A stretch of DNA of 64,000 nt from Terriglobus roseus DSM 18391 (lineage in GTDB: Bacteria > Acidobacteriota > Terriglobia > Terriglobales > Acidobacteriaceae): the NCBI RefSeq assembly GCF_000265425.1, contig NC_018014.1, forward strand, positions 2,852,001-2,916,000, read 5' to 3'. Below are positions 45,502-61,690 of the stretch, piece by piece. Position numbers and translations under genes: made by a program. The notes beneath the pieces were generated by a model, which saw only the letters and a program-made list of their open reading frames with translations, did not search any database and was not told where the DNA came from. Within the stretch, counting starts at the first letter, position 1; each line of letters opens with the position of its first letter.

Positions 45502-46239
45502 TCAGGCCTCTTCCATGCGAGCCACCGGCATGGATGGAGAGAAGAGGTAACCGGTGCTCCGTATCGCGATGAGTCCGCCCGTGAACAGTGGAAAGACTTC
45601 AAGCTTCTTACGCAGACGCGAGACGTGCATATCAACACTTCTGTCGTACGCGCGATGCGGCCTTTCCAGCGCTTCGATGCAAAGAACCTCTCGGTTAAGC
45701 ACTTCGCCCGGATGAGATAGAAAGATGCGCAGGAGGAGGTATTCCACGTCCGTAAGATCGATTGAGCGGCCATGGAACGTTATCTGACGGTGCAACGGAT
45801 CGATGGCAAACCCCGGAGTTGCCTCTGCAGCAGGCATATCAGCGCGAGGCACGACATGCGCGCGACGAACCACAGCGCGCATGCGAGCGAGTAACTCTCG
45901 TGGGTTGAACGGCTTCGGAAGATAGTCGTCCGCTCCCATTTCGAGGCCGACAATCCGGTCGATCTCTTCGCCTCTTGCGGTAAGCAGAAGGACATGGGGG
46001 TTCATCTCGCGTTGGAGACGACGCAAAACCTCAAAGCCATCGAAATCCGGCAACATCACATCAAGGACGACTAGTTCCGCACGGACTCTACGTGCGGCCT
46101 CCATGCCCGATGCTCCGGTGTGTGCAGCAGTGACGTCCCAGCCGTGACGAGTCAAGTAGTCCCGCAGCATCGAGCAGAGTTTCACGTCATCATCGATGAC
46201 CAGCACGCGGTCCTTCTGGATGGTCTGCGCTTCTGTCAT
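45502..46239 (-). CDS. OmpR/PhoB-family response regulator, CpxR-like
   Basis: 245 aa. Receiver domain: RVLVIDDDVKLCSMLRDYLT, phosphoacceptor in LVVLDVMLPDFDGFEVL near residue 58, Lys in GADDYLPKPFNPRELL. Winged-helix output domain: ITFHGRSIDLTDVEYLLLRI, LNREVLCIEALERPHRAYDR and MHVSRLRKKLEVFP. Transcribed with the kinase and divergently from the RND operon. The three 10-bp direct repeats at 46295-46324, a layout typical of OmpR-family sites, lie in the 133-bp gap between them, so this is the first candidate to bind them. Confidence 0.92.
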   Translation of the reverse strand: MTEAQTIQKDRVLVIDDDVKLCSMLRDYLTRHGWDVTAAHTGASGMEAARRVRAELVVLDVMLPDFDGFEVLRRLQREMNPHVLLLTARGEEIDRIVGLEMGADDYLPKPFNPRELLARMRAVVRRAHVVPRADMPAAEATPGFAIDPLHRQITFHGRSIDLTDVEYLLLRIFLSHPGEVLNREVLCIEALERPHRAYDRSVDMHVSRLRKKLEVFPLFTGGLIAIRSTGYLFSPSMPVARMEEA

Positions 46240-46294: not shown

Positions 46295-46324
46295 GTGACA
46301 CTTCGTTACACTTTGTGACCCATC
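46295..46324 (+). promoter_or_regulatory. Triple 10-bp direct repeat, predicted OmpR-family operator for RND operon
   Basis: Three consecutive 10-mers: GTGACACTTC, GTTACACTTT and GTGACCCATC. Phase of 10 bp puts all three on one DNA face. It ends 49 bp before the ATG of the adaptor gene. The same element occurs at 56242-56271 and 61585-61614, and a two-repeat form at 61487-61506. Confidence 0.7.
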
Positions 46325-46372
46325 ATTACCACGGTTCAACTTTGGCCGATCACTCTTGGATAAGAGGTAACC

Positions 46373-47689
46373 ATGCTCCCTTCCGAGAGGCCGATGCAAG
46401 AAGCCACATCCGCCGCCCCTGACGAATCCGCCCCCCAGCAGACGCCGCATGAACGCCGGTGGCTCGCCTGGGTACTCGTTGTCCTGGTCTGCGGCATCAT
46501 CACGATCCCTCTGCTTCTGCCTACGATGCCACCCGGCGGGATGCCTCCGGGTGGTATGCCACCGGCCGGTCCTGGAGGCGCCGCGCCCAGGGGGGCCGGC
46601 GATAAGGGCAAGAAGGCTTCAGGATCCCCGAGCAGCGTCATGGCAGCCACGGACAACAGCACCCCGGTCACGACGGCCAAGGTGCAAACGGGCCACATGG
46701 ATATCTTCCTGGATGCCCTCGGTACCGTGACCCCGTTGGCTACGGTAAATGTGTACAGCCAGGTCAGCGGACGCGTCCTGGCGGTGAACTACCGCGAGGG
46801 CCAGATGGTTCACAAGGGACAGGTGCTGGTAGAGATCGATCCGCGCCCGACCGAGGCACAGGCGCAGCAGGCACGGGGTAGCCTGGCGCGAGATCGGGCG
46901 CTCCTGGACCAGGCCCGCGTCAACCTGCAGCGCTACCAGGAAGCATTGAAGGATCACGCAATCGCCGAGCAGACCGTATTCGATCAGTCCGCGACCGTGA
47001 ATCAGTACGAGGGTACGGTCGCCAATGACGAAGGACAGGTGAAGTACTACGAGGTTCAGCTCAGCTATTGCCATATCATCGCGCCGATCTCCGGCAAGAT
47101 TGGTCTGCGGCTGGTTGACTCCGGCAATACCATCTTTTCGGGCAGTTCAACCACCATTGCGACGATCACGCAGCTGAACCCAATCACCGTTGTGTTCTCC
47201 GTTGCGGAAGATCATCTCCCCAAGATCCAGCAGAAGACCGGGCCGAATCATGGAGCCTTGACGGTTGCCCTTTACGACCGTTCCCAGACCAGCCAACTAA
47301 CCACTGGAAAGCTGCTTACCCTCGACAACCAGGTGGATACAAGCACCGGAACCGTGCGGCTGCGTGCCCAGTTCGACAACGCTGCAGCAGCGCTCTATCC
47401 CAACCAATTCGTGAATGCACGGCTTCAGGTGGATACGCTGCAGAACGCCAAGCTGATCCCCACTGGCGCCGTGCAATACAACGGCCAACAAGCATTTGTG
47501 TACGTCGTGAAACAGGACTCCACGGTGGCGCTGCGTAATATCACCGTCCTGAATACTGAAGGAAACCAGAGTGCGATCGACGGCCTGAACCCCGGCGATA
47601 CGGTCATCACTAGTAACTTCGACCGTCTGACGGATGGCGCAAAGGTGGCAGTGGGTTCCAGCCAGTCGGCCATGATGGGGCCTGCGTAA
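46373..47689 (+). CDS. RND efflux periplasmic adaptor (MdtA-like)
   Basis: 438-aa membrane-fusion protein linking two RND pumps to the outer-membrane factor. ATG 46373 has GAGG 6 nt upstream. N-terminal anchor RWLAWVLVVLVCGIITIPLL, then a Pro/Gly/Met-rich linker (PPGGMPPGGMPPAGPGG). Core: MDIFLDALGTVTPLATVNVY, lipoyl half GRVLAVNYREGQMVHKGQVL, coiled-coil hairpin (ALLDQARVNLQRYQEALKDH), second half YCHIIAPISGKIGLRLVDSG, barrel LNPITVVFSVAEDHLPKIQQ. The stop overlaps the next ATG (TAATG). The two distinct pump genes behind it match the MdtABC plan, where a heteromeric pump works with one adaptor. Confidence 0.92.
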   Translation: MLPSERPMQEATSAAPDESAPQQTPHERRWLAWVLVVLVCGIITIPLLLPTMPPGGMPPGGMPPAGPGGAAPRGAGDKGKKASGSPSSVMAATDNSTPVTTAKVQTGHMDIFLDALGTVTPLATVNVYSQVSGRVLAVNYREGQMVHKGQVLVEIDPRPTEAQAQQARGSLARDRALLDQARVNLQRYQEALKDHAIAEQTVFDQSATVNQYEGTVANDEGQVKYYEVQLSYCHIIAPISGKIGLRLVDSGNTIFSGSSTTIATITQLNPITVVFSVAEDHLPKIQQKTGPNHGALTVALYDRSQTSQLTTGKLLTLDNQVDTSTGTVRLRAQFDNAAAALYPNQFVNARLQVDTLQNAKLIPTGAVQYNGQQAFVYVVKQDSTVALRNITVLNTEGNQSAIDGLNPGDTVITSNFDRLTDGAKVAVGSSQSAMMGPA

Positions 47690-50600
47690 TGAATATTTCG
47701 CGGCCCTTCATCACGCGGCCGGTTGCGACGATCCTGCTGATGGTGGCGATCCTGCTCGTCGGCATTGTCGCTTACAGGGACCTGCCAATCTCTGCACTAC
47801 CTGAGGTCAACTACCCGACCATTCAGGTGCAGACGCTGTATCCCGGCGCCAGTCCCGAGGTGATGAGTTCCACAGTCACCGGTCCGTTGGAGAAGCAGTT
47901 CGGCCAGATGCAGGGCCTGTCGCAGATGACCTCCACCTCTTCCGGAGGTGCGTCGGTCATTGTGTTGCAGTTTGATTTGACCGAAGACATCGACGTCGCT
48001 GAACAGGAAGTCCAGGCTGCGATCAATGCCTCAAACTCCTACCTGCCCGCCGACCTTCCTATCCCACCGACTTACAGTAAGACAAACCCCGCAGATGCGC
48101 CTGTGTTGACGCTTGCTCTGACATCGAAGGTGATGCCATTGAGTGAAGTCCAGGACCTTGCGGACACACGTTTGGCACCGAAGATCTCTCAGCTCACCGG
48201 TGTGGGTCTCGTCACGATCCAGGGCGGGCAGAAGCCTGCGGTACGCATCCAGGCAAATCCAACGGCGCTTGCCTCTTATGGTTTGACTCTTGAAGATGTC
48301 CGGACAGCGATTACCGGCACCAGCGTCAACACGGCCAAAGGCACGCTGAACGGACCGCAGCAGGCGTACACCATCGACGCGAACGATCAGCTCACTTCGG
48401 CCGAGCAGTACAAGCAAGTGGTCGTGGCCTATCGCAATGGATCGGCTGTCATGCTGCCGGAGGTCGCGAAGATCACCAATGGCGTTGAGAACAACAAACT
48501 GGCTGCCTGGATGAACACCACGCCAGCGATTATCCTCAGCATCCAGCGGCAATCTGATGCCAACACGATCAAGGTAGTCGACTCGATCAAGGCACTGCTG
48601 CCGCAGTTGCAGGCAAGCCTGCCGGCTTCCATTGAAGTGCATATACTGACCGACCGAACCATAACGGTCCGCGCTTCGGTAGAAGACGTTGAGTTCGAGC
48701 TGCTGCTGACGATCGGGCTGGTGATCGCGGTGATTTACGTCTTCCTGCGATCATGGCGAGCCACCGTGATTCCTGCGGTTGCTGTTCCGCTCTCGTTGGT
48801 CGGTACGTTCGCCGCGATGTATGCGCTGGGCTACAGCCTGAACAATCTAACGTTGATGGCGCTCACGATTTCGACCGGCTTCGTCGTCGATGATGCGATC
48901 GTGATGATCGAGAACATCAGCCGCTACCTGGAAGAGGGACTGGATCCTCTTGAGGCATCCCTCAAAGGCGCTGAAGAGATCGGCTTCACCATCCTGTCGC
49001 TCACGGTTTCACTGATCGCTGTGCTGATTCCGCTGCTGTTCATGGGAGACATCACTGGCCGGCTCTTCCGGGAGTTTGCCGTGACGCTGGCGGTGACAAT
49101 CATCATCTCCGCGGTGGTCTCCCTCACCTTGACACCGATGATGGCGTCGCGGCTGTTGAAGCACACACCTCCTGAAGACGAGACGCGCTTTTACAAATGG
49201 TCAGAGCACCAGTTCGAACGCATCATCGGCTTCTACGGGCGGACACTTCAGTGGGTGCTCGGTCGTCAGGCGGTGGTGCTGGTCATTGCGTTCAGCATGA
49301 TCGTCTGCGCTGGTCTTCTGTACTACTTCATCCCCAAGGGCTTCTTCCCGACGCAGGATACCGGCATCATCCAAGCCATCACCCAGGCACCGGAGGCCAC
49401 GAGCTTCGACGCGATGAGCAAACGGGAACAAACGGTGGCCCGAGAGATTCTGGAAGACCCCGCCGTGGAATCCATCGCATCGTTCATCGGCGTGGATGCC
49501 AGCAACACCACGCCAAATACGGGACGCATGCAGATCAATCTGAAGGCACTGTCCACGCGTGGTGTCTCAGCGACGGAGGTTATCCAGCGACTGCGTCCCA
49601 AGCTGAACCGCATCACCGGCATCACAACCTACCTGCAGCCAGTCCAGGATCTTACCGTTGAGGATCGTGTCAGTCGTACGCAATACCAGTACACGATCGA
49701 AGACTCCGACAGCGCAGAGCTGAAGGCGTGGTCGTCGAAGCTGGTCGCCAGGCTTCGTACCCTGCCTCAACTAGAAGACGTGACCACGGACGAGTTGCCG
49801 AACGGCAATGCAGTCACGGTCGATGTGGACCGCGTCACGGCATCCCGTCTAGGCATCAACCCTCAGAGCCTGGACAACACGCTTTACGATGCCTTCGGCC
49901 AGCGCCAGATCTCAACGCTGTATAGCCAGACGAACCAGTACCACGTGATCCTCGAAGCTGATTCGAAGTTTCAGAGCAGCGTGGAGCGGCTTGGCGATAT
50001 TTACATGCAGGGCACGGGAACTGCGAGTAACTCCAGCAGCGGTGGAGGATCGGGGGGCTACGGCCAGACTGGCACGTCGTCTTCCTCCTCGACCAACTCG
50101 CAATTGACTGCGAGCAGTACAAGCGGTGTAAGCGCCACGACATCCAGCAGCTCGACGCTGGCCACGACTACAGCCAACAGCCAACTCAATACCTCGGCGC
50201 AAAACGGGGCAATCTCAGGATCGACCACCGGCAGTACAGTGCTCCAGACATCGTCGACCACCGGCAGCACGTCTGCACTTAGCACATCCTCTTCCAGTGG
50301 TGGGTCGTCGTCGGCGCAGAGCAGTACCGGGTCAGCCGCTGGTGGTGGTGGCGGCAGTGCAAGCAGCAGCAATTCGAGCGCTCGTTATCCCGTCCCGCTC
50401 GCGGCATTCACCACGATCAAGAAGTCCCTTACACCGCTGACCATCAATCGTCAGTCGCAGTTTCCGGTCATCACGATCTCGTTCAATCTTGCGCCGGGTG
50501 TGCACTTGAGCCAGGCGGTGAATGCCGTGACGAAAGCGACCGCTGCACTCAAGATGCCAACGAATGTACAGACGAAGTTCCAGGGTACAGCAGCCAGTTA

Positions 50601-51174
50601 TGAGACATCGTTGAACAACGAAGGTCTGCTGGTGCTTGCAGCGCTACTCACCGTCTACATCGTCCTCGGTGTTTTGTACGAGAGCTTCATTCACCCACTC
50701 ACTATTCTCTCCACACTGCCGTCAGCAGGCGTAGGCGCGTTGCTGGCGCTCATGCTCTGCCGCATGGACTTGGGCATCGTTGGCATCATCGGCATTGTGC
50801 TGCTGATTGGCATCGTGAAGAAGAACGGCATCATGATGGTCGACTTCGCTCTCAACGCAGAACGCGTCGAAGGCAAGCCGCCCGAAGAAGCGATCTATAA
50901 CGCGAGCTTGCTTCGCTTCCGTCCGATCATGATGACGACCCTTGCTGCCCTCTTCGGTGGATTACCGCTCGCACTTGGTCGCGGTATCGGGGCTGAGCTG
51001 CGCAGGCCTCTTGGCGTAGCGATGGTGGGCGGCTTGCTATTGAGCCAGGTACTGACGCTGTACACGACGCCGGTGATCTACCTCTGGTTCGATCGCATCA
51101 GCCAGAAGTTGCAGCGGAGAAAGAACGATAAGCCGATTGGTCAACAGAACCTGCCACTAGGGGGTCAGGCATGA
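47689..51174 (+). CDS. RND efflux pump subunit (MdtB-like) with Ser/Gly/Thr-rich insert
   Basis: 1161-aa proton-driven pump with 12 helices and two periplasmic loops. Family landmarks: ISRPFITRPVATILLMVAIL, LPEVNYPTIQVQTLYPGASP, proton-relay GFVVDDAIVMIENISRYLEE near residue 400, IPKGFFPTQDTGII, and LLIGIVKKNGIMMVDFALNA with the relay Lys. RND pumps are usually 1020-1060 aa. The excess is a low-complexity block of about 125 residues at about 775-898 (50011-50385), almost all Ser, Thr, Gly, Ala and Asn, in the second periplasmic loop just before ARYPVPLAAFTTIKK. It lies where the docking part meets the porter domain. Its ATG overlaps the adaptor stop and its own stop overlaps the next pump gene (ATGA). 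Confidence 0.92.
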   Translation: MNISRPFITRPVATILLMVAILLVGIVAYRDLPISALPEVNYPTIQVQTLYPGASPEVMSSTVTGPLEKQFGQMQGLSQMTSTSSGGASVIVLQFDLTEDIDVAEQEVQAAINASNSYLPADLPIPPTYSKTNPADAPVLTLALTSKVMPLSEVQDLADTRLAPKISQLTGVGLVTIQGGQKPAVRIQANPTALASYGLTLEDVRTAITGTSVNTAKGTLNGPQQAYTIDANDQLTSAEQYKQVVVAYRNGSAVMLPEVAKITNGVENNKLAAWMNTTPAIILSIQRQSDANTIKVVDSIKALLPQLQASLPASIEVHILTDRTITVRASVEDVEFELLLTIGLVIAVIYVFLRSWRATVIPAVAVPLSLVGTFAAMYALGYSLNNLTLMALTISTGFVVDDAIVMIENISRYLEEGLDPLEASLKGAEEIGFTILSLTVSLIAVLIPLLFMGDITGRLFREFAVTLAVTIIISAVVSLTLTPMMASRLLKHTPPEDETRFYKWSEHQFERIIGFYGRTLQWVLGRQAVVLVIAFSMIVCAGLLYYFIPKGFFPTQDTGIIQAITQAPEATSFDAMSKREQTVAREILEDPAVESIASFIGVDASNTTPNTGRMQINLKALSTRGVSATEVIQRLRPKLNRITGITTYLQPVQDLTVEDRVSRTQYQYTIEDSDSAELKAWSSKLVARLRTLPQLEDVTTDELPNGNAVTVDVDRVTASRLGINPQSLDNTLYDAFGQRQISTLYSQTNQYHVILEADSKFQSSVERLGDIYMQGTGTASNSSSGGGSGGYGQTGTSSSSSTNSQLTASSTSGVSATTSSSSTLATTTANSQLNTSAQNGAISGSTTGSTVLQTSSTTGSTSALSTSSSSGGSSSAQSSTGSAAGGGGGSASSSNSSARYPVPLAAFTTIKKSLTPLTINRQSQFPVITISFNLAPGVHLSQAVNAVTKATAALKMPTNVQTKFQGTAASYETSLNNEGLLVLAALLTVYIVLGVLYESFIHPLTILSTLPSAGVGALLALMLCRMDLGIVGIIGIVLLIGIVKKNGIMMVDFALNAERVEGKPPEEAIYNASLLRFRPIMMTTLAALFGGLPLALGRGIGAELRRPLGVAMVGGLLLSQVLTLYTTPVIYLWFDRISQKLQRRKNDKPIGQQNLPLGGQA

Positions 51175-54100
51175 ACATATCTGCCCCTGCGATTCGCAGA
51201 CCCATCGCTACAATTCTGTTGACGGCTGCGCTGGGCCTGGCTGGAACTCTAGCCTTCAACGTCCTTCCAGTTTCCCCGTTGCCACAGATCGATTCCCCGA
51301 CCATCAGTGTCAGCGCGCAGCTACCGGGCGCCAGCCCCGATGTGATGGCAGCGGCCGTGGCGACACCACTCGAGCGTCAGTTTGGTCATATCGCCGGTGT
51401 CACGGAGATGACCTCGCAGAGCTCGACTGGATCAAGTTCGATCTCGCTGCAGTTTGATCTGAGTAAGAACGTCAACGCCGCGGCACGTGAAGTACAGGCG
51501 GCGATCAGTGCGGCCCGGACCTATCTCCCAACGAACCTGCCTTCCAATCCTGTGTACCGCAAGGTGAACTCCGCGGACGCACCCATCGCCATTCTTGGGA
51601 TTGAGTCCGACACGTATGCCGTAGGCGCGCTCTACGATTCCGCATCTACCATCCTGCAGCAGAAGATTGCGCAGATTAAGGGTGTTGGTCAGATCACCAT
51701 CGGCGGTTCCACACTGCCCGCCGTACGTGTTGAAATCAATCCCCTGCAGCTTGAGCACTATGGCTTGAGCCTGGCGGATGTTGCCACCTTCCTGAAGAAC
51801 CAGAACGCTCACACGCCGACCGGTGCTCTGTCAGACGGGCAGACCATGAGCTACATCACGGTGAACGATCAGCTCTCAAAAGCAGAGGACTATCGCAAGC
51901 TGGTGGTGAGTACGCGCAATGGAGCTGCCGTCCGATTGGAGGACATCGCAGAGGTCGTAGATTCGACCGAGAATCTACACTCCAGCGGCTATGTGAATGG
52001 ACGCAAGTCGGTTGACCTCATCATCTTCAAACAGCCCGGTGCCAACATCATCGAGACAGTGGATCGCATCAACGCACAGCTCCCTGCCCTGCGTTCGGCG
52101 ATCCCGGCCGGGCAGTCGATTACCAAAATCATGGATGCGACCACCACGATCCGTGCTTCGCTGCGTGATACAGAACTGACACTGCTCCTTTCGATCCTGC
52201 TCGTCATCCTGGTGGTCTTCGTGTTCCTCCGCGACTGGAGAGCGACGATCATCCCCGGCATTGCCGTTCCCACTTCGTTGATCGGAACCTTCGGTGCGAT
52301 GTACCTGCTGCACTATTCACTCGACAACCTCAGCCTGATGGCGCTCACCATCTCGACGGGATTCGTCATCGACGATGCCATCGTCGTCATGGAAAACATC
52401 ACGCGTTACGTTGAGGAGGGCGTGCCGCCACTCGAAGCAGCATATAAAGGCGCAAAGGAGATTGGCTTCACGGTCATCTCCATCACGGCTTCCCTGCTGG
52501 CAGTGTTCATTCCAATCCTCATGATGGGTGGCATCATCGGGCGACTCTTCCGTGAGTTCGCCGTGACGCTATCGATCGCCATCTTCATTTCGATGGTCCT
52601 GTCCCTGACGACGACGCCAATGCTTTGCTCGCTGCTGTTGAAGCCCCGCGAGAAGTCAGAGCACGGCCGCTTGTATCGGTTCGTGGAAAGCTGCTTCGAC
52701 TGGCTGCGCGCCATGTATGAACGCAGCCTTCGCTGGGTGATCCGCGACCACGCAGTGCTGGTCCTCGCGGTCTTCCTCTTCACCATCGGGTTGAATGTTG
52801 TGTACCTGATGCGTGTCTCAAAAGGCTTGTTTCCCCAGCAGGACACAGGCTTGTTGATGGGCGCTGTCATGGGTCCACAGGATGCGTCGTTCCAGATGAT
52901 GGATGGCGCCACCAAGAAGTCCGTCGAGATCGTTCGCGCAGATCCTGCAGTCCAGAATGTCATTGGTTTTACGGGCGGCGGCATCAGCGGCACGTCGAAC
53001 AACGCTTTCATGTTCGTTGTCCTCAAGCCACTGGACGAGCGCAAGCTGAGTGCGACTGCTGTCCTGAATCGTCTGCGTCCGAAACTGATGGTAGTCAAAG
53101 AGGCGCAGACCTTCCTGATGGCCGCGCAGGAGATCAACCTTGGCGCGCGACAATCGAACGCACAGTATCAATACACGCTGCAGGCAGACTCCACAAGCGA
53201 CCTGAAGAAATACGTCCCCCTGCTCACACGCGAGATGAAGAAACTGTCCCTCGTTGCCGACGTCAACTCCGATCTACAGAGCGGTGGCCTGGAGGCCTAC
53301 CTGACGTATGACCGTCGCACGGCAGCCCGCCTTGGGATCATGCCTTCGAATATCAACGACGCCCTGAACTACTCCTTTTCGCAGGCGCAGACGTCGACGA
53401 TCTACAAGCCGCTCAATCAGTACCATGTCATCCTCGAAGCCCAGCAGCAGTTCACGCAATCACCCGCGACTCTTCGCAATACGTATGTGCAAACCGCCAG
53501 CGGTTCCGTCCCCCTGAGTGCCATCAGCACTTATAAAACGCTCACCGCCCCGCTGTCCGTGAACCATTCCGGTCTCTATCCGTCGTCGACCATCTCTTTC
53601 AACCTGGCAGGCGGGACATCGATTGAAAAAGCAACCAGCGAGGTGCACGCGCTGGAAACACAGTTGCACATACCGAAGAGCGTGCATGGAGCTTTCTCCG
53701 GCACAGCCCAGCTCTATCAGGCTTCCATCGACTCTGAGCCGATTCTGATCGCCACCGCCATCTTCGCGGTATACATCGTCCTGGGTGTTCTCTATGAGAG
53801 CTTCATTCACCCCATCACCATCCTCACCACGCTCCCATCCGCATCGCTCGGTGCAGTCATCACGCTCGTGCTCTTCCATGCCGAACTGGACGTCATCTCC
53901 CTGATCGGGATCATCCTGCTCATCGGCATTGTGAAGAAGAACGCCATCATGATGATCGACTTTGCGTTGCAGTTGGAACGCGAGCAAAACTTGCCGCCCG
54001 AAGACGCCATCTTCCAAGCCTGCATCCTGCGCTTTCGTCCCATCCTGATGACCACCGCGGCAGCATTCTTCGGAGCAGTTCCACTGGCCTTTGGCAGCGG

Positions 54101-54281
54101 AATCGGCTCGGAGTTTCGCCGGCCACTTGGCCTCACCATTCTCGGTGGTTTGCTTGTGAGCCAGGTCCTCACGCTCTACACCACGCCAGTCGTGTACCTG
54201 ATGTTGGATCGCCTGCGCCATCGCTTTGGTCGCAAGCAATCGAACCATCCTCATGCGATCGCGGCCCAGGGGGCATTATGA
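51171..54281 (+). CDS. RND efflux pump subunit (MdtC-like)
   Basis: 1036-aa pump paralogue of normal length, without the low-complexity insert of its partner. Landmarks: SAPAIRRPIATILLTAALGL, LPQIDSPTISVSAQLPGASP, GFVIDDAIVVMENITRYVEE, VSKGLFPQQDTGLL and LLIGIVKKNAIMMIDFALQL. Start overlaps the MdtB-like stop by 4 bp and its own stop overlaps the outer-membrane factor start by 4 bp, so the operon is tightly coupled. In E. coli the MdtB/MdtC heterotrimer exports bile salts, novobiocin and metals; the substrate here is not known. Confidence 0.93.
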   Translation: MNISAPAIRRPIATILLTAALGLAGTLAFNVLPVSPLPQIDSPTISVSAQLPGASPDVMAAAVATPLERQFGHIAGVTEMTSQSSTGSSSISLQFDLSKNVNAAAREVQAAISAARTYLPTNLPSNPVYRKVNSADAPIAILGIESDTYAVGALYDSASTILQQKIAQIKGVGQITIGGSTLPAVRVEINPLQLEHYGLSLADVATFLKNQNAHTPTGALSDGQTMSYITVNDQLSKAEDYRKLVVSTRNGAAVRLEDIAEVVDSTENLHSSGYVNGRKSVDLIIFKQPGANIIETVDRINAQLPALRSAIPAGQSITKIMDATTTIRASLRDTELTLLLSILLVILVVFVFLRDWRATIIPGIAVPTSLIGTFGAMYLLHYSLDNLSLMALTISTGFVIDDAIVVMENITRYVEEGVPPLEAAYKGAKEIGFTVISITASLLAVFIPILMMGGIIGRLFREFAVTLSIAIFISMVLSLTTTPMLCSLLLKPREKSEHGRLYRFVESCFDWLRAMYERSLRWVIRDHAVLVLAVFLFTIGLNVVYLMRVSKGLFPQQDTGLLMGAVMGPQDASFQMMDGATKKSVEIVRADPAVQNVIGFTGGGISGTSNNAFMFVVLKPLDERKLSATAVLNRLRPKLMVVKEAQTFLMAAQEINLGARQSNAQYQYTLQADSTSDLKKYVPLLTREMKKLSLVADVNSDLQSGGLEAYLTYDRRTAARLGIMPSNINDALNYSFSQAQTSTIYKPLNQYHVILEAQQQFTQSPATLRNTYVQTASGSVPLSAISTYKTLTAPLSVNHSGLYPSSTISFNLAGGTSIEKATSEVHALETQLHIPKSVHGAFSGTAQLYQASIDSEPILIATAIFAVYIVLGVLYESFIHPITILTTLPSASLGAVITLVLFHAELDVISLIGIILLIGIVKKNAIMMIDFALQLEREQNLPPEDAIFQACILRFRPILMTTAAAFFGAVPLAFGSGIGSEFRRPLGLTILGGLLVSQVLTLYTTPVVYLMLDRLRHRFGRKQSNHPHAIAAQGAL

Positions 54282-55817
54282 AACTTGTCACATCTGCTCG
54301 CGCAACGGGCGCAGCGTTAACGCTTTCTCTCTCCCTGCTTGGTGGTTGCCGCGTTGGCCCTAAGTATGTCCGTGCCTCGATGCCTACAGCGCCGCCAGTC
54401 GCATACAAGGAGAACCAGGCCGGCAGCGACGAAGCCCGCAGCAACGGTTGGCGTCAGGCTCATCCAGACGATGCCATGCTGCGCGGAAAGTGGTGGGAGG
54501 TCTTCCAGAACGCAGAGCTAAACGCTCTGGAAGAACACCTCATCATCGACAACCAGAACATCAAGCAATACTTCGAGAACTACATGGCGGCGCGCGCTGT
54601 TGTCCGCAATGCCCATGCCTCTCTCTATCCATCGATCTCGTTTGCACCCAGCACGAACATCCAAGGTCAGGGCAATCAGAGCACCGCGACCGCAACGACG
54701 TCCACCACGGGCACGAGCGGAAGCGGTACGACCGGGACGACGCTTGCGAGCAACAGCAGCCACAGTTACTCACTCCCCTTCAGCGCCTCTTGGGAGCCTG
54801 ATCTCTTCGGGAAGGTTCGTAACACCATTCGCGAGGACGCCAACGCGGCACAGGTAAGTGCGGCAAATCTGGCGAACGAAACACTCAGCGAGCAGGCCAG
54901 TCTGGCTCAGTATTACTTCGAACTGCGCGGCCAGGACGCACTTCAGGAGCTCTACAACAAGACAGTGGATGCCTACCGAGATACTCTGCGTCTCACCCAG
55001 ACGCGATACCGGACCGGCATTGACTCTGACCAGGATGTCGCCCAGGCCGAGACAAACCTTCGCACCGCCGAAGCGAATGCAGCCGCGGTGGCGACAACAC
55101 GTGGCCAGTACGAACACGCCATCGCTCTGCTGATCGGTCAGCCCCCCAGGCAACTTCTCAATCGCCGTCAAACCGTTGGATGCCAAGCCTCCGTTCGTTC
55201 CGGTCGGGATCCCATCCCAACTGCTGGAACGGCGTCCAGACATTGCAGCAGCCGAGCGAACGATGGCTCAGGCGAATGCACTGATCGGCGTCGGCCAGGC
55301 GGCCTACTACCCTGACATCTCTCTGACTGCCAGCGCGGGAACACAAAGCTCAGACATTACGCACCTGCTGAATCTCTCCGCGGGCTTCTGGTCACTGGGC
55401 ACAAGCGCAACCGAGACGATCTTCGACGCGGGAGCGCGCCGCGCTACGGTGCAACAGTACAAGGCACAGTACAACGCAGATGTGGCGGCATACCGGCAGA
55501 CGGTGCTGAACGCCTTCAAGGAGGTCGAAGATTATCTGATCTCAAGCCGGCAACTCGCTGAACAGCAACAACGACAGCAGTTAGCGATCACCTCCGCGCA
55601 GCGATACCAGAAGCTCGCCTTCACCCGTTACACAACGGGCGTCGACACCTACCTTAATGTTCTGACAGCACAGAACAGTGTCTTCAACAGCCAGGAAACG
55701 GAAGTCAACCTCCGTACCAGCCGCATGACCGCGGCTGTCCAGTTGATCGCGGCTCTCGGTGGTGGTTGGAGTGCGACAGATCTGCCATCGGAGAAGGACG
55801 TTACTCGCAAGCCATAG
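54278..55817 (+). pseudogene. Outer-membrane efflux lipoprotein (OprM/NodT-like), frameshifted in a C run
   Basis: Fourth gene of the RND operon and its exit duct. ATG 54278 overlaps the pump stop. Signal and lipobox LSLSLLGGCRVGPKY. First OEP half to EHAIALLIGQPP; a Ser/Thr/Gly-rich stretch sits at about residues 135-160. At 55142-55147 a run of six C (five expected) shifts the frame, giving 345 aa with an unrelated tail. From there the other frame is open: GNFSIAVKPLDAKPPFVPVG, IPSQLLERRPDIAAAERTM, YYPDISLTASAGTQ, FNAFKEVEDYL-type hairpin and LTAQNSVFNSQETEVNLRTS, ending at 55817. Homopolymer location makes a sequencing artefact likely; if real, the pump lacks its own channel and would need another. 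Confidence 0.85.
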
Positions 55818-55959
55818 AAGGCACCTCACCCTGAAGGGCTCTGCCAGGTCGAACTCCTAAAAGGCCAGGTCCGCAAGAAACTGGCCGCTGCCTGCACCGC
55901 ACTCCCGTTGCGCGGAAGGCCGTTTCGTACGCCAAACGTAGAACGCTAGCTCTTGGCGT

Positions 55960-56181
55960 TCAACCTTCGGTTGCGACGGGAATTGTTTTCGGGCGTGCGT
56001 GGAACTCAACCACTTCCTTCACGTCCAAACAGAGAGCAAAACCTGCGTAGAGAAAGCCGTAGGCGGTACCTCCGATGAGAAAGCTGACCAGCAGCGATGG
56101 GAGCCATGCCGACATGGAAAGGATTGGTTCTTTCATCGTCGTATTGACCGAATGGATCAGTCTGGGTATTGGATTTCTCAT
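55960..56181 (-). CDS. Small membrane protein of unknown function
   Basis: 73 aa from ATG 56181 (MRNPIPRLIHSVNTTM) or 58 aa from ATG 56136 (MKEPILSMSAW). One strong hydrophobic segment (AWLPSLLVSFLIGGTAYGFL then YAGFALCL) that could cross the membrane once or form a hairpin, followed by a charged tail (DVKEVVEFHARPKTIPVATE). I recognise no family. Support comes mainly from the 30-bp triple repeat at 56242-56271, oriented toward it and 61 bp ahead of ATG 56181, as ahead of the RND operon. Confidence 0.45.
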   Translation of the reverse strand: MRNPIPRLIHSVNTTMKEPILSMSAWLPSLLVSFLIGGTAYGFLYAGFALCLDVKEVVEFHARPKTIPVATEG

Positions 56182-56241
56182 GGACTCCCGATTCGACCCT
56201 CGTTGTTTATAGACGGCTTTCACCGAAGGCCGTTCCGTCAT

Positions 56242-56271
56242 GAGTGGTCACTGACCGTAACGATTTGTCAC
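56242..56271 (-). promoter_or_regulatory. Triple 10-bp direct repeat, second copy of the predicted operator
   Basis: Read on the minus strand: GTGACAAATC (56271-56262), GTTACGGTCA (56261-56252) and GTGACCACTC (56251-56242). Same order, orientation and 10-bp phase as 46295-46324. It lies between the small membrane protein (minus) and the orphan response regulator (plus) and so could also affect the latter. Confidence 0.7.
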
Positions 56272-56310
56272 AACCAGATCAGCATGACTTGAGGTACCGT
56301 TCGCGGAGTT

Positions 56311-57066
56311 TTGCGGGAGTGTGGCATCCACGACTTACTACATTCACGCGGCGTGTCTCGCGATGTCCTGATCGTCGATGACGATGTAGATCTATGCCGA
56401 ATGCTCGCAAGCTTCCTCGGCCAGCACGGCTGGATAGTCCATGCCGGGCATAACGGCCAACGTGCGCTGGAACTCTGCCGGAGCAAACCCTTCGAGGTAA
56501 TTCTGCTCGACATTGACTTGTCGGACTGCAGTGGCTTCGACCTTATCCGAGAGATTCACGACTCGATGGGGACACCCATCATCGTTATCAGTGGTCGATG
56601 CGAAGAGACGGATCGCATTGTGGGTCTGGAGCTCGGGGCGGATGATTACATCTCGAAGCCTTTCAGCCTGCGGGAATTGTTTGCTCGCATGGGGGCCGTT
56701 GTCCGTCGATCAGGTCAATTGGCTAGGAGCCCGAACGGCCCTTCTACTCACTCCTTCGGTCATTTTGTAGTCCAGTTGGAAACGCATGAAATCTCTTACG
56801 GCAGAACGAAGCTTACCTTGACCCCGGCGGAATTTCAGCTCCTACGTCTCTTACTCGATAGGCCGTATGAAGTGTGCAGTCGTGAGCTGCTGGCGCAGAT
56901 CGTGCTGCTTCGGACCTATGACCCACTCGACAGAAGTCTGGACATGCACATCTTGAGACTTCGGCGAAAGCTGGGCCGTGTTCCACAGTTCGGAGGGGGC
57001 ATCCTCACCGTAAGGAGCGGTGGCTACATGCTGGCTCTCCATCCTCAAAAATTCAAAGGGATCTGA
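56311..57066 (+). CDS. Orphan OmpR/PhoB-family response regulator
   Basis: Up to 251 aa; TTG 56311 is the furthest start and GTG 56356 (VSRDVLIVDDDVDLCRML) would also give a complete receiver domain. Receiver: LIVDDDVDLC, phosphoacceptor in VILLDIDLSDCSGFDLI, Lys in GADDYISKPFSLRELF. Winged helix: ISYGRTKLTLTPAEFQLLRL, SRELLAQIVLLRTYDPLDRS and MHILRLRRKLGRVPQFGGGI. It is close in plan to the regulator at 45502, but no kinase gene is next to it. Convergent with the secretin pair. Candidate regulator of, or competitor for, the triple-repeat sites. Confidence 0.88.
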   Translation: MRECGIHDLLHSRGVSRDVLIVDDDVDLCRMLASFLGQHGWIVHAGHNGQRALELCRSKPFEVILLDIDLSDCSGFDLIREIHDSMGTPIIVISGRCEETDRIVGLELGADDYISKPFSLRELFARMGAVVRRSGQLARSPNGPSTHSFGHFVVQLETHEISYGRTKLTLTPAEFQLLRLLLDRPYEVCSRELLAQIVLLRTYDPLDRSLDMHILRLRRKLGRVPQFGGGILTVRSGGYMLALHPQKFKGI

Positions 57067-57108
57067 ATGACAAGAGTCAGTCGCGACGGTATGTGGAGTT
57101 CGTTCCAA

Positions 57109-59040
57109 TCAGAATCTGTCACCGACGCGGTAGGTGCTGACGTGCATCGCAGAGTCGCTCACCACGTGCGGCGTCACTGTGATCAAAAGCTCGTTCCTGG
57201 TTCCGTCGGAGTTCTTGTTGGTGCTTTGGAAACCCGGTAGATCTGCCATCCCAGGCAAACCGTCCAGCGCCTTTGCTTCATCTGTACTTACCAGGGCGGC
57301 AAGCATGGTCGATTGGCCAGGGGCGATGGTAACGGTCGACTTCAGCGCCCGGTTGTTGAGGATAGGGATATCGTTGACCCCGGTTCCTCCCAGGGATTCG
57401 AGCTTGAAGTCGAGATTCAATTCCACGTCTCCGTCCCGAAGGAGCCGTGGTGTCAGTTTGAGCGTGAGGCCGATATCCTCGAACTGGATCTGCGGCGTCG
57501 TGTTGCTACCGCTGCCGCTGGACCCAGTGAGCTGTGCAATGACGGAACTGCTGACCCCAGCAGCCGCCAACTCCTGCGCTACAGTGCTGCTCGAAGCCGA
57601 AGTCGTGATTGCCGTCAGAATTGGATAGCGGGATCCGACACGCAACGTGGCCTCGTGGCGGTCACTCGAGCGTATCTGGAGCGCATTCAACATCCGGACG
57701 TCGGTGGAGTTCAAGAGCATATTCAAACTGGTCGAACCCATAGATATTCCCAGCAGCGGAACACCCTCCAGGCTGCCGACAGTTCCAAGGATGCTTGTAA
57801 GGGAACTACTTCCAGACACGCCGGCTGCCACGAGGAATGCGACCTCCTGCAGTTCCTGCTGATAAGTCGTGCCCGAGAGAGTCAACGCACCGCTCGAGAT
57901 AGATTCATTGAGTAGGGTTTGGTTATCTGAGATCAGCTTCTGTGCCGTGCCAGAGACGTCAGTAGCAGTGGCCGAGGTCGGCGGTGCAAACCCGATCTTG
58001 CGGGCGGTAGTCTTGTCGACTTCGTAGATGTTGATGTCGAGCAGGATGTCTGCAGTTCGCACAGCAAGCTCGGTCAACAGATCATGGATGCGGTGCACGG
58101 ATGCTTGTGGACCACGAACAACGATGATGCCGCTGTCGGCATTCACCGCCAGATGCGTCAGATCAAAATGTGAACGCAGGACATTTGCGAGTTCCAGCAT
58201 TTGCGGCCGGTTCTGCGAGGAGAGATAGATGGTCTCTTCCACCAGTGGCATGAGCAATCCACGCACCTCTTCTGCGTCATCTGCAATCAAGGCGCTCGTC
58301 GAGTCCAGTGGTACGGCGAAGAGATGGGCCGCCTTATGAAGCACGCGGGCTGCCCCCAGGAAATCAACATCATCGACATCGATGCGAAGGTTCTTCCCAC
58401 TCAGGACAGAAGGATCGAAGACGCTTTCGATGCCGAACGCCCTGTAAACCTCGCGGACGACCTGCTGTGTGGCGCCACTCGTATGAAAACTCCGGACCCC
58501 ATCAAAGGGTGTCAAGGCAAGCGGTCCCTCAAATTCCTCTGACGTACGCCGCTCCTGCTGCCCTGTCGTTTTACGTAGGGTGTCGGCGAATTGCAGTACG
58601 AGCGGGTTGTTCGGATCGAGAGTTCTTGCTCCCGCAAACAAGCGGTCGGCCTCTCCAGCATCGCCCGCAAGGCGCGACTTGAAGGAGGCCTGCATTAATC
58701 GCTTCACCTCAACCTCACGCGCATAGAGCAGCGCCAGGACGTAGGTTCGGTTGTCAGGGTCGAGGTGGACGGCTCGTTCAAATTGGCGCTGGGCCTTCTG
58801 AAATTCTCCGCGCGCGAAGAACTTTGCTCCTTCCAGATAGGCGTCGTCTGCCTCCCGCTTTTGTCTTCGCGACCCGGTATGCGCCGTGGTCGTCGGCACA
58901 TCCGCAGCAGATGGTTGCGACTCGCTCTGATTACTGCTGCTACTGAGTACCACCGTGCTTGCGCAAGTGATACCGGGACTTGCGCACGCAGCACCGAGGG
59001 GAAGCAAGAAAACAAGTCCCGCCTCCCATCTACTGAACAT
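57109..59040 (-). CDS. Secretin-family protein with TPR and N-domains
   Basis: 643 aa from ATG 59040 (MFSRWEAGLVFLLPLGAACA), which overlaps the upstream secretin's stop by 11 bp; the frame to 59076 lies inside that gene. Signal or lipoprotein leader (Cys 20). TPR-like repeat at about 65-140 (EGAKFFARGEFQKAQRQFER, AVHLDPDNRTYVLALLYARE). N-domains at about 180-330 (QQVVREVYRAFGIESVFDPS, HFDLTHLAVNADSGIIVVRG). Secretin domain from about 440 to the end (IQFEDIGLTLKLTPRLLRDG, LESLGGTGVNDIPILNNRAL, RNELLITVTPHVV). No other secretion or pilus gene lies nearby. A pair of different secretins in one operon is unusual. Confidence 0.87.
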   Translation of the reverse strand: MFSRWEAGLVFLLPLGAACASPGITCASTVVLSSSSNQSESQPSAADVPTTTAHTGSRRQKREADDAYLEGAKFFARGEFQKAQRQFERAVHLDPDNRTYVLALLYAREVEVKRLMQASFKSRLAGDAGEADRLFAGARTLDPNNPLVLQFADTLRKTTGQQERRTSEEFEGPLALTPFDGVRSFHTSGATQQVVREVYRAFGIESVFDPSVLSGKNLRIDVDDVDFLGAARVLHKAAHLFAVPLDSTSALIADDAEEVRGLLMPLVEETIYLSSQNRPQMLELANVLRSHFDLTHLAVNADSGIIVVRGPQASVHRIHDLLTELAVRTADILLDINIYEVDKTTARKIGFAPPTSATATDVSGTAQKLISDNQTLLNESISSGALTLSGTTYQQELQEVAFLVAAGVSGSSSLTSILGTVGSLEGVPLLGISMGSTSLNMLLNSTDVRMLNALQIRSSDRHEATLRVGSRYPILTAITTSASSSTVAQELAAAGVSSSVIAQLTGSSGSGSNTTPQIQFEDIGLTLKLTPRLLRDGDVELNLDFKLESLGGTGVNDIPILNNRALKSTVTIAPGQSTMLAALVSTDEAKALDGLPGMADLPGFQSTNKNSDGTRNELLITVTPHVVSDSAMHVSTYRVGDRF

Positions 59041-61411
59041 GCACCGCCCCAGGTTTCCCGACGACAGCCAGGCCACTCTGCTTGCTGTCAGTGGCGTTCA
59101 TGTTCGTCAGGGTTAGAGTCGAATCTCCACTGCCTACCGCCTTGAACGTAAGGATCACAAGGCTTCCATCACCCGTCACCCCACCAGCATTTGGTGGCCG
59201 CACCACGGATACGGAGACCACTCCATTGCCGCTCTCGCGTTGCTGCAACGCCGCGGGTTGACCGTCACGGCCCAGGAGCTCTCCGTTGTCCACGCGCACG
59301 AGCGACAACACCTTGGGATCGAAATTTACTTGGAACGGAGCGCTGAATAGATCGACCGCGTGGGAAGCCGTCACAGCCACCTGGAAGGTGGATCCGATCT
59401 GCTGATTCACTGCGGACGGTACCACTTGAAGGACTACCGATGCACTTGGTATCGCGCCGCTTGTCTTGGTTGTGGGTGATACCAGCGGACGCGCCTGCGC
59501 CGCAAGCTGTCCAAGCATGGCCGAGGCAGCGTTCGCGGCAGACGTCGGCTGACTGGTGGCAGCCTGCTCTTTGCCTCCAACATCGTCCACATCCTTCGTA
59601 TCGCTGAGTCTGCCATTCGGGCCGCGATGCCGCAGTTCGATGCTCTGGCTGGTGCCGCTGTCGATCACTCTCGTGTTCGCTTCGGTCAGGGGTGATTCCC
59701 GAACGATGTGCGGAATCAGTAGGAAGACGATCTCGTCGCTCGATTGCTTCTTGTCCTGACTGCTAAAAAAATATTTGAGAAACGGTAGCTCTCCTAGCCC
59801 AGGCGTTCCGCTTACGCTCTTGGTATCGCTCTGCTGAAGAAGCCCAGCCAGAATGGATGGTTCGCCGTCTTTGAGTTGAATCACCTGCTGCACCAAGCGC
59901 TGGGAGATGATCGGCTCCGAGACGCCGCTGATGGTGGTTGACCCTGTCTGCGAGGAGACTTCGATCTTCATCTTGAGTGATACCTGGTGATCAAGATGAA
60001 CCGTGGGTGTCATGTCGATGTTGACACCCACATCCACGTAAGTGAACTGCGTCGTCGCTGTGGCAGTCGATGTGAGCGTGGAAGTTGTCGAACCGGTTGC
60101 GACGGGGATCTTTGATCCGATCTTGAGCGTCGCCTGTTGACCATCACTCGCGCGTACCCTTGGATTCTGCAGAACCCGCGTGTCCGAGTCAGACAGCAGC
60201 GCGTTCAGCGAAGCGCTGCTCAAAGTCACGGCGAAGTTGGTGCCGTTCAAGTTGCCGAGTGTGTTCAGCGTCAATCCCGAGGTGGAAGTACTAGTAGACG
60301 TTGACGATGAGCTCGAAGAACTGGTGGAATTCGCATTGCTGGCTTGGGCACTCACACTGAAGCTCGTCGGCAACGTAATGCCTAGATTCCGCTCCAGATC
60401 ACGGCTTACCTCCAGAACCGCAACGTCTACGACCACTTCCGAGCGCGTCCGATCAAAGTCATCAATCAGCTTCTGAACCAGCACCAGCTCGGCTGGGGTC
60501 GCACGGATCACAATGGCGTTCTGCGATGCGAGTAGAAAGATCTTGGTACTCGGATCGAGGAGATTCCTGAGCGCAGTCAGTACTTCGTTGGCATCATTCT
60601 GCTGCGACATATTTGTCAAATAGAACGTCTCTACCGCAAGACCGTCATTGTCGGTATGCTTCGCGCGATTGTTCTGCGCAACAAAGATCGTGTTCTCCGT
60701 AAGTGGAGACCAGAACGTCCCGGCTATCTTACCGACGATTCGGAGACTATCGTTCAGCGACACGTTGGAGAGGTCCACCGCAATCCGTCTCGAGTTGTAG
60801 TCGGAATCGAAGATGACATTGAGGCCCGCCAGCTTTGCGATCGCCTGATAGATGACCTTGCTGTCTTCAACAAGGTGCATGGTGATAGGGTCCATCGAAA
60901 TTGGCGCGAGCTCGACCGGACTGTCCAAAGAATCAATCTCGCGACGCACGCGCTTCTGATGCTGTGCCTGTAAGTTCCCCACCGGAGCGGCCGCACCGCC
61001 TCCTCCAGCAACCGCACTTCCCGACGCATGCGATGCATTGGATGGTTCCTCTGAGGCGAGGAGCTCTTGTGCAGCCGATTGATTTCCCCGGTCGATCTGC
61101 AGGGCGCGCGCGAACTCTTTCATGGCGCCGGCGTCGCCAGATTGCCGCAAGACACGCCCACGATCCAGATGTGCGTTCGATGCCTGGAAGCGCATCCGCT
61201 CATAGTGGGTCTCGTAGCGGAGATCCTTCGGCTTCAGTAGATGCGCTTGACGATAGGCCTCAAAGGCTGCGTCGAAATCATTACGCAGCTCGGCCTCGTT
61301 CCCGCGCTTGTCCCATTTCGCCGCGGATTGCGCCAGGGATTTGTTTGGAGCAACGCAGGTAACTACCGCACAGAGAAGCGATAGAAATACCTTGCGTTTA
61401 CAGTCAGCCAT
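59030..61411 (-). CDS. Secretin with TPR N-terminus and C-terminal cohesin domain (GspD/PilQ-like)
   Basis: 793 aa from ATG 61411 (MADCKRKVFLSLLCAVVTCV), which gives a clean signal peptide; the frame to 61483 adds 24 residues without signal character. Order: TPR at about 30-120 (AELRNDFDAAFEAYRQAHLL), STN/N0-like and N-domains at about 175-340 (SKVIYQAIAKLAGLNVIFDS, EVLTALRNLLDPSTKIFLLA), Ser/Thr tract near 360-385, secretin pore at about 400-590 (YVDVGVNIDMTPTVHLDHQV, SILAGLLQQSDTK, EIVFLLIPHIV), then a linker and a cohesin-like domain at about 665-793 (VVPSAVNQQIGSTFQVAVTA, FQVNFDPKVLSLVRVDNGEL). The cohesin tail on a secretin is an acidobacterial habit I recall, not a textbook feature. First gene of the secretin pair. 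Confidence 0.88.
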   Translation of the reverse strand: MADCKRKVFLSLLCAVVTCVAPNKSLAQSAAKWDKRGNEAELRNDFDAAFEAYRQAHLLKPKDLRYETHYERMRFQASNAHLDRGRVLRQSGDAGAMKEFARALQIDRGNQSAAQELLASEEPSNASHASGSAVAGGGGAAAPVGNLQAQHQKRVRREIDSLDSPVELAPISMDPITMHLVEDSKVIYQAIAKLAGLNVIFDSDYNSRRIAVDLSNVSLNDSLRIVGKIAGTFWSPLTENTIFVAQNNRAKHTDNDGLAVETFYLTNMSQQNDANEVLTALRNLLDPSTKIFLLASQNAIVIRATPAELVLVQKLIDDFDRTRSEVVVDVAVLEVSRDLERNLGITLPTSFSVSAQASNANSTSSSSSSSTSTSTSTSGLTLNTLGNLNGTNFAVTLSSASLNALLSDSDTRVLQNPRVRASDGQQATLKIGSKIPVATGSTTSTLTSTATATTQFTYVDVGVNIDMTPTVHLDHQVSLKMKIEVSSQTGSTTISGVSEPIISQRLVQQVIQLKDGEPSILAGLLQQSDTKSVSGTPGLGELPFLKYFFSSQDKKQSSDEIVFLLIPHIVRESPLTEANTRVIDSGTSQSIELRHRGPNGRLSDTKDVDDVGGKEQAATSQPTSAANAASAMLGQLAAQARPLVSPTTKTSGAIPSASVVLQVVPSAVNQQIGSTFQVAVTASHAVDLFSAPFQVNFDPKVLSLVRVDNGELLGRDGQPAALQQRESGNGVVSVSVVRPPNAGGVTGDGSLVILTFKAVGSGDSTLTLTNMNATDSKQSGLAVVGKPGAVHVQ

Positions 61412-61486
61412 CTCGTGTCGAAAAACTTTGGAATATTGTCGGCTCACAGTGCGATAGACGTTCAACGAAGTCTTCGGCGGCACTCC

Positions 61487-61506
61487 GGTCGGTAACGAAT
61501 TGTCAT
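61487..61506 (-). promoter_or_regulatory. Two-repeat form of the predicted operator, facing the secretin pair
   Basis: Minus strand: ATGACAATTC (61506-61497) then GTTACCGACC (61496-61487). The third repeat (GGAGTGCCGC) does not match. It ends about 75 bp upstream of ATG 61411. Confidence 0.5.
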
Positions 61507-61584
61507 CATCACTCGTGACATTTCAGGATCCTGTCAGGCAGCTGATCAGGCGGTGCACTCATGCAGCACCAACGGACTGCGGCG

Positions 61585-61614
61585 ATGACAATTTGTTACA
61601 AACCGTGACCACGG
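61585..61614 (+). promoter_or_regulatory. Triple 10-bp direct repeat, copy facing the 166-aa protein
   Basis: ATGACAATTT, GTTACAAACC and GTGACCACGG, phase 10 bp, 76 bp before the start at 61691. It shares the intergenic region with the opposite-facing copy at 61487-61506, so this 280-bp gap is a divergent promoter with one site per direction. Confidence 0.68.
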
Positions 61615-61690
61615 CAACAAACCGGAAGCGTTCTTCTAAAGCCAACGCGGCCGCAGTGATCCATAGGACCGCTGCAGAAGGAGCAAGACA

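Follow-up and report, generated by a model that had tools for sequence, protein, structure and literature searches.

The question raised by this locus is what a set of short direct repeats with a 10-bp step does between the genes of a single cluster in Terriglobus roseus. The stretch analyzed here (the window, 64 kb) corresponds to positions 2852001-2916000 of the one contig (C1, 5,227,858 bases) of the genome that we label G000, and which we take to be that of strain KBS 63. The cluster carries genes for a sensor histidine kinase (HK1), two paralogous response regulators (RR1 and RR2), a resistance-nodulation-division (RND) efflux pump, a remnant of an S53 protease, two secretin-domain proteins (secA and secB) and a small secreted protein with a CarboxypepD_reg-like domain. 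The repeat arrays are probably operators of the cluster's own OmpR/PhoB-family regulators, and the genes that they precede would then make up a Cpx-like local envelope-stress regulon.

An original prediction, made from the letters of the window, had placed a triple direct repeat at 46295-46324, 56242-56271 and 61585-61614 and two of its units at 61487-61506, and all four sites are present there letter for letter. Three units are found everywhere three were claimed, but at two places the description falls short, since a fourth in-phase unit, one letter off in each case, extends the array between RR1 and the pump (46295-46330, plus strand; units at 46295, 46305, 46315 and 46325, the last being ATTAC) and the array between RR2 and the protease remnant (56237-56271, minus strand; units at 56271, 56261, 56251 and 56241, the last being ATGAC). 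The array before the CarboxypepD_reg gene (61585-61614, plus strand) has three units, and the site before secA (61482-61506, minus strand) has units at 61506 and 61496 and a degenerate third at 61486.

The pattern RTKAC-N5-RTKAC-N5-RTKAC is expected 0.38 times in the 5.23-Mb genome from the base composition of the window; it matches 10 times, always within the three arrays, which a second copy of the region (discussed below) repeats; each copy contributes five overlapping matches, and the reversed pattern has no match in the whole genome. A stricter pattern with 16 fixed letters finds only array sites at 0-1 mismatch, at six places in the genome; at up to three mismatches it gives 30 matches against 35 in the reversed control, and so no excess. 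The window was also scanned with a 26-bp matrix built from 22 sites in three other Terriglobus genomes (7 from G031, 11 from G120 and 4 from G124) and from no site of the window itself. Its top three ranks go to the arrays at 61585 (34.4 bits), 46295 (31.7 bits) and 56271 (31.0 bits), whereas the best window match outside the arrays scores 9.5 bits, the best of 60 mononucleotide-shuffled windows 19.3 and the reversed window 5.4. Nine of the ten two-unit matches in the window lie within the four sites and the tenth (47617, minus strand) lies in coding DNA; the reversed window has no two-unit match. Matches to the triple motif, the matrix and the two-unit pattern are thus almost all intergenic, which was the outcome foreseen for true upstream elements. 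A genome-wide regulon in T. roseus is unsupported: outside the cluster only a third paralogue of the regulators, RR3, has an adjoining site with three mismatches (an array scoring 25.5 bits with the matrix), and the count at that level does not exceed its control.

In G124 and G031 the sites precede the same genes as in T. roseus, a conservation that had also been anticipated, and in G120 they are spread within its cluster. G124 has the T. roseus order (HK1-RR1-array-pump, protease-array-RR2, secB-secA-site-array-CarboxypepD_reg) plus additional genes that separate the outer-membrane factor from the protease (their products include another OEP-family member and a glyoxalase-like protein); in G031 the order is largely the same and reversed, with the CarboxypepD_reg gene about 8.5 kb from secA. 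The RR2/protease array consists of four perfect units in both genomes, as does the RR1/pump array in G031, and the 46295 array is the best conserved piece of the RR1/pump intergenic region across the three genomes. The secretin site is ATGACAATTCGTTAC; G124 retains it upstream of the corresponding gene (46840, minus strand), and in G031 it reads ATGACCAATCGTTAC (22637, plus strand). Relatives of the CarboxypepD_reg protein that have an upstream site are 58% (G031) and 61% (G124) identical to it. G120 holds as many as eleven arrays within about 30 kb and also has two RR1 orthologues, secretins and CarboxypepD_reg genes; the pump was not found in its cluster within the 60 kb read.

Across the genus, exact matches to RTGAC-N5-GTTAC-N5-GTGAC occur in 4 of 19 Terriglobus genomes (15 matches, against none in the control), and RR1 orthologues of at least 70% identity are present in exactly these four. 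Triple matches lie inside the cluster in 10 of 10 cases in G000 (both copies), 9 of 9 in G031, 12 of 13 in G120 and 6 of 7 in G124, which is 37 of 39, or 38 of 39 if the thirteenth match of G120 (C29:41247), which adjoins an RR3-type regulator, is counted. G066 has three overlapping triple matches at its RR1 relative and G130 has none; the reversed motif has no match in any of six other genomes (G031, G120, G124, G123, G130 and G066). Among 397 genomes of the order the exact pattern matches 18 times against 2 for the reversed control, and 3 of the 18 fall outside the four genomes; the matches in G180, G322 and G147 were read in 3-kb loci only. A contig-level genome search gave distant regulators only, the best with 49% identity. 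What had been proposed as one regulon therefore holds for an OmpR/PhoB-type core of pump, secretins and small secreted proteins, which passes both the intergenic and the conservation checks, but it looks local.

RR1 (45502-46239, minus strand) and RR2 (56311-57066, plus strand; 43% identical to RR1 and without an adjoining kinase gene) each have a receiver (Response_reg) and a winged-helix Trans_reg_C domain above the Pfam cut-offs, and so belong to the OmpR/PhoB family. The nearest solved structures to RR1 are MtrA and then BaeR, and its first-ranking NCBIfam models are CreB, OmpR and CpxR, all under cut-off. HK1 (44091-45494, minus strand; HAMP, HisKA and HATPase_c domains) is a Cpx-like kinase, its two best NCBIfam models being the two CpxA ones (253 and 197 bits). 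An HK1 relative lies downstream in all 30 RR1-family genes that were read with their flanks. Twenty of these are Lys-type and ten Arg-type (see below), and 17 of the 30 are Lys-type with strong arrays, typically TTTAC-N5-TTTAC-N5-TTGAC-N6-TTTAC. The TTTAC arrays are the reverse complement of the CpxR box as given in two papers, GTAAA-N5-GTAAA (PMC9600279, PMC5063474). The TTTAC half-site is present in 34 of 34 strong Lys-type sites in relatives outside Terriglobus, and a four-unit TTTAC pattern matches 24 times in 60 family genomes against none in the control. Two LTXXQ-like motifs (search pattern L[TSDN]xxQ) occur in the longest divergent frame at 18 of the 20 Lys-type loci and at none of the 10 Arg-type loci; the two Lys-type exceptions are L134, where another frame is longest, and L140, where no frame was found. 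All seven divergent proteins tested pass the Pfam LTXXQ cut-off. Arrays and divergent frames together indicate that the usual layout in these relatives is LTXXQ gene, array, regulator, kinase, as in the cpxP-cpxRA layout of Escherichia coli, and in T. roseus, G124, G031 and G066 the pump adaptor replaces the LTXXQ gene.

Several side observations touch this family. Fourteen of the 24 TTTAC matches adjoin regulators in our table of relatives and 10 lie away from those; several genomes (e.g., G053, G057, G009 and G056) hold more than one four-unit TTTAC array, which may mark further targets. Two exported Terriglobus proteins look CpxP-like by eye, one of 145 amino acids beside the secretins of G120 (C50, L188:4485-4922) and one of 148 amino acids after RR2 in G124 (C1, L191:19392-19838); with the Pfam LTXXQ model one of them is below the cut-off (E 0.016) and the other has no match. 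RR3 (G000:C1:1520636-1521399, locus L159) is 57% identical to RR1 and has its own kinase; a divergent array of three units stands about 79 bp ahead of the matched start of RR3, and some 4.4 kb past the kinase there is a distantly related RND pump.

RR1, RR2, RR3 and the G066 regulator have Arg at the same recognition-helix position, as does MtrA, and this common Arg makes a shared site plausible. A quick tree of 78 proteins (52 with both traits, the RR2 rows being classed G from the adjoining array) also places the four on the same side of a branch whose SH-aLRT support is 99, with a long-branch warning for RR3 and for RR2 of G120. The binder would most likely be RR1, the partner of HK1, and possibly RR2 too. 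It is rather unlikely that control is split, with RR1 and HK1 acting at the RR1/pump array only, RR2 (perhaps with another kinase) acting at the protease, secretin and CarboxypepD_reg arrays, and the shared motif reflecting common descent. In T. roseus, G124, G031 and G120, RR2 does lie next to the protease array and close to the secretins, and the RR1/pump arrays have GTGACACTT where the other arrays have GTGACNAATC, which could mean different preferences. However, the Arg and most of the recognition helix are common to RR1 and RR2, which also fall on one side of the supported branch, and because RR2 has no adjoining kinase gene, it could be cross-phosphorylated by HK1.

The same helix position offers a lead on half-site specificity. 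In 70 loci (the initial 30 and the next 40 from a longer table of regulator places, these 40 picked beforehand as test loci and containing one strong Arg site), Arg regulators have 7 G-type, 1 T-type and 5 weak sites, Lys regulators 34 T-type and 15 weak sites, and Asn regulators 2 T-type and 6 weak sites. A specificity switch in which Arg goes with G and Lys with T as the first half-site base may be read from these counts, but it is not significant, with 1-2 independent contrasts, and L133 (Arg, T-type) and L231 (Arg, weak, T-like) run counter to it. It is possible, if doubtful, that in a few Terriglobus species a Cpx-type circuit was rebuilt as a closed local regulon, in which the regulator was duplicated, the operator multiplied ahead of pump, accessory secretin, S53 protease and CarboxypepD_reg genes, and the half-site changed from TTTAC to GTKAC with a Lys-to-Arg change in the recognition helix, insulating it from other Cpx-like regulators.

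The arrays stand in a fixed register to a -10-like element. When 27 hand-listed sites of at least three units (the two-unit secretin sites being left out) are aligned on the last in-phase unit, column 32 after that unit is T in 24, which none of 2000 random-shift controls reaches; columns 27-32 approximate TNTNCT, and column 39, the expected transcription start, is a purine in 21. This fixed distance suggests that the last array unit sits at -35, and the predicted geometry matches that of a class II activator promoter, with the operator overlapping the -35 region at a fixed distance from the -10. Candidate -10 elements lie at 46352-46357 (plus strand, columns 27-32 after the last unit) for the pump; at 56209-56214 (minus strand, GTCTAT, at the same distance in G124 and G031) on the protease side; at 61454-61459 (minus strand, GTCTAT) for the secretins, where the register is that set by the degenerate third unit, equal in G124 and 1 nt off in G031; and at 61632-61637 (plus strand, TCTTCT, in register with the array) for the CarboxypepD_reg gene. 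For the TTTAC arrays of other genera, 33 of the 37 T-class loci were used. At columns 58 and 63, which lie 27 and 32 positions from where the fourth unit begins, T is found in 32 and 22 of these 33 arrays, respectively, and 23 have A at column 71; the promoters are orthologous to one another and amount to a single additional case.

A mechanism can be proposed from this arrangement. HK1 would sense envelope disturbance and phosphorylate RR1, whose dimers would bind the 10-bp repeats head to tail, each dimer covering two units, so that a four-unit array takes two; the unit nearest the promoter would overlap the -35 region, and class II activation would recruit RNA polymerase to promoters with poor -10 elements, jointly switching on the MuxABC/MdtABC-type pump, the accessory secretin pair, the CarboxypepD_reg protein and, in the relatives, the S53 protease. 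A last unit over the -35 would suit a repressor as well, blocking RNA polymerase until a signal relieves the block, but this seems improbable: the -10-like elements are poor and no conserved -35 is seen beyond the unit itself, which is typical of activator-dependent promoters, and OmpR/PhoB-family regulators so placed are mostly activators.

That the arrays are copies of a small, locally spreading repeat element and not operators is very improbable. The copies do cluster in one region, and two arrays of G031 (at 16817 and 22397) have long flanks in common, as if copied recently, but the spacers differ between most arrays while GTKAC stays, the sites are in register with -10-like elements and conserved at orthologous genes, and the reversed controls are empty. 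Chance repeats picked out by eye in 64 kb have a negligible probability, for although the two-unit secretin site would be weak alone, the excess of matches over the 0.38 expected, all in the cluster or its second copy, together with the reversed controls and the matrix ranking, rules out an origin in chance or base composition.

Several points weigh against arrays of this kind being Cpx-like operators of the local regulators. The curated Cpx cut-offs are missed (171 of 341 bits for RR1, and 253 of 800 and 197 of 486 bits for HK1), and the window half-site GTKAC differs from GTAAA. The secretin site is weaker, though conserved, with only two good units, and is absent from the ten matrix matches printed. 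The seventh triple match of G124 falls outside the cluster, and G123, which has no RR1 orthologue, has one triple match far from the nearest regulator. The -10 register was spotted by eye first and then counted on the same sites, 10 of the 27 promoter sites (3 in the window and 7 in G124 and G031) include orthologues and so are not independent, and the register is kept least well at the pump promoter.

The genes downstream of the arrays can be described as follows. The pump begins with a periplasmic adaptor of MdtA/MuxA type (46394-47689, plus strand; its open reading frame opens at 46373, but homology favors a start at 46394), followed on the same strand by an MdtB/MuxB-like permease (47689-51174; NCBIfam 1467.7 bits against a cut-off of 1584) and an MdtC-like permease (51171-54281; 1312.4 bits against 1774). 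MdtABC/MuxABC models are the best-ranked kind for all three proteins, each score being under its curated cut-off (343 against 391 for the adaptor), and the adaptor is above the cut-off of the general RND_mfp model. The outer-membrane factor (OEP) gene (54278-55817, plus strand) is broken into open reading frames 54278-55315 and 55176-55817 in different frames; it is one open frame in G124 and G031. The two duplication copies of the region differ within this gene, and either a sequencing error or a real lesion could account for the interruption. The genes found in G124 and G031 between this factor and the protease are missing from T. roseus.

The gene preceded by the 56271 array had been taken for a small membrane protein, but it is what remains of the start of an S53 (pro-kumamolisin) protease gene, which the relatives have complete. 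Its open reading frame could start at 56241, within the array, and the homology-based start is 56181. From there the product aligns with residues 1-70 of a 1025-amino-acid G124 protein carrying a Pro-kuma_activ domain, and so 55960-56181 (minus strand) is, judging from this alignment, the N-terminal remnant of a protease gene truncated in T. roseus. Beyond RR2 lie secB (57109-59076, minus strand; Pfam Secretin 4e-23) and secA (59030-61411, minus strand; Secretin 1.4e-39 and a C-terminal cohesin-like domain, 1.6e-10), the latter in an open reading frame that opens at 61483 and is likelier to start at 61411. The small secreted protein (61697-62191, plus strand) scores 31.0 bits with the Pfam CarboxypepD_reg-like model against a cut-off of 32.3. 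Relatives of secA are found in all 19 genomes of the genus searched, with best matches 55-61% identical in the 16 outside G000, G124 and G031, and these three have the cluster copy (at least 80%) and a paralogue elsewhere (56-58%), so the cluster secA is an accessory paralogue. The T. roseus paralogue, at 1707036, is followed by genes for two proteins with a pseudopilin-type N-terminal methylation motif. The cluster copy of G120 is 49% identical, and G121 and G126 have 49-50% identical copies without exact sites in the genome.

A direct duplication whose period is about 460.5 kb contains the entire window; it runs from 2.30-2.32 Mb to 2.76-2.78 Mb and again the same distance on. Over 104 kb around the window the two copies are 99.98% identical, and probes place the duplication edges as expected for a head-to-tail tandem. 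PMC5900883 gives a CheckM contamination of 13.79% for T. roseus KBS 63, with multi-copy markers nearly all protein-identical, and takes the duplicated marker genes as low-level population diversity. These figures fit a duplication of this region, and a tandem duplication of about 460.5 kb would explain the duplicated markers.

Title-level literature searches found no Cpx-type operator described in Acidobacteriota and nothing relevant on efflux and secretins in Terriglobus. If the proposed operators are real, a simple rule (half-site, 10-bp step and a 27-nt interval between the last unit and the -10) would predict envelope-stress promoters in a very common group of soil bacteria; a single switch would also link the accessory secretin pair with a pump and a secreted protease, and so make the secretin role testable.

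Among the known systems that come close is CpxRA-CpxP of E. coli and Pseudomonas. The cluster shares with it a CpxA-like kinase and head-to-tail half-sites in a 10-bp step, and its relatives outside Terriglobus have the CpxR-box half-site in reverse and a divergent LTXXQ gene. The original prediction had called the joining of efflux, secretins and envelope proteins uncommon, but for a pump to carry a CpxR-type site is not as rare as that implies, since PMC5063474 describes a conserved CpxR site at muxA and cpxP in Pseudomonas, and the MuxABC-type neighbor in T. roseus recalls that muxA promoter. The cluster differs from CpxRA in its GTKAC half-site and three or four units in place of GTAAA-N5-6-GTAAA, in its divergent pump adaptor in place of a cpxP-like LTXXQ gene, in its second regulator RR2, in targets limited to one cluster with secretins and secreted proteins, and in scores under the curated cut-offs.

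The half-site and spacing are nearly those of actinobacterial MtrAB, whose operator in Streptomyces is GtnAcC-n5-GTnAcn (PMC13189361); both are GTnAC direct repeats with a 5-nt spacer, and both regulators have Arg at the same helix position. RR1 scores 158.2 against 300 with the MtrA model, however, and the cluster belongs to another phylum, is without the MtrB/LpqB gene order and has three or four units. BaeSR-mdtABC of E. coli likewise places an MdtABC-type pump under two-component control, and BaeR is the second nearest solved structure to RR1, but its models stay under cut-off (165 against 380 for BaeR and 134 against 500 for BaeS), and the gene order and operator of BaeSR differ from those of the cluster. 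In PhoB-controlled promoters the Pho box replaces the -35 element and its units have an 11-bp step. The T. roseus arrays have a 10-bp step, another half-site and other targets, and they resemble PhoB class II promoters in their tandem direct repeats, in a last unit that appears to lie on the -35 and in its fixed distance to the -10.

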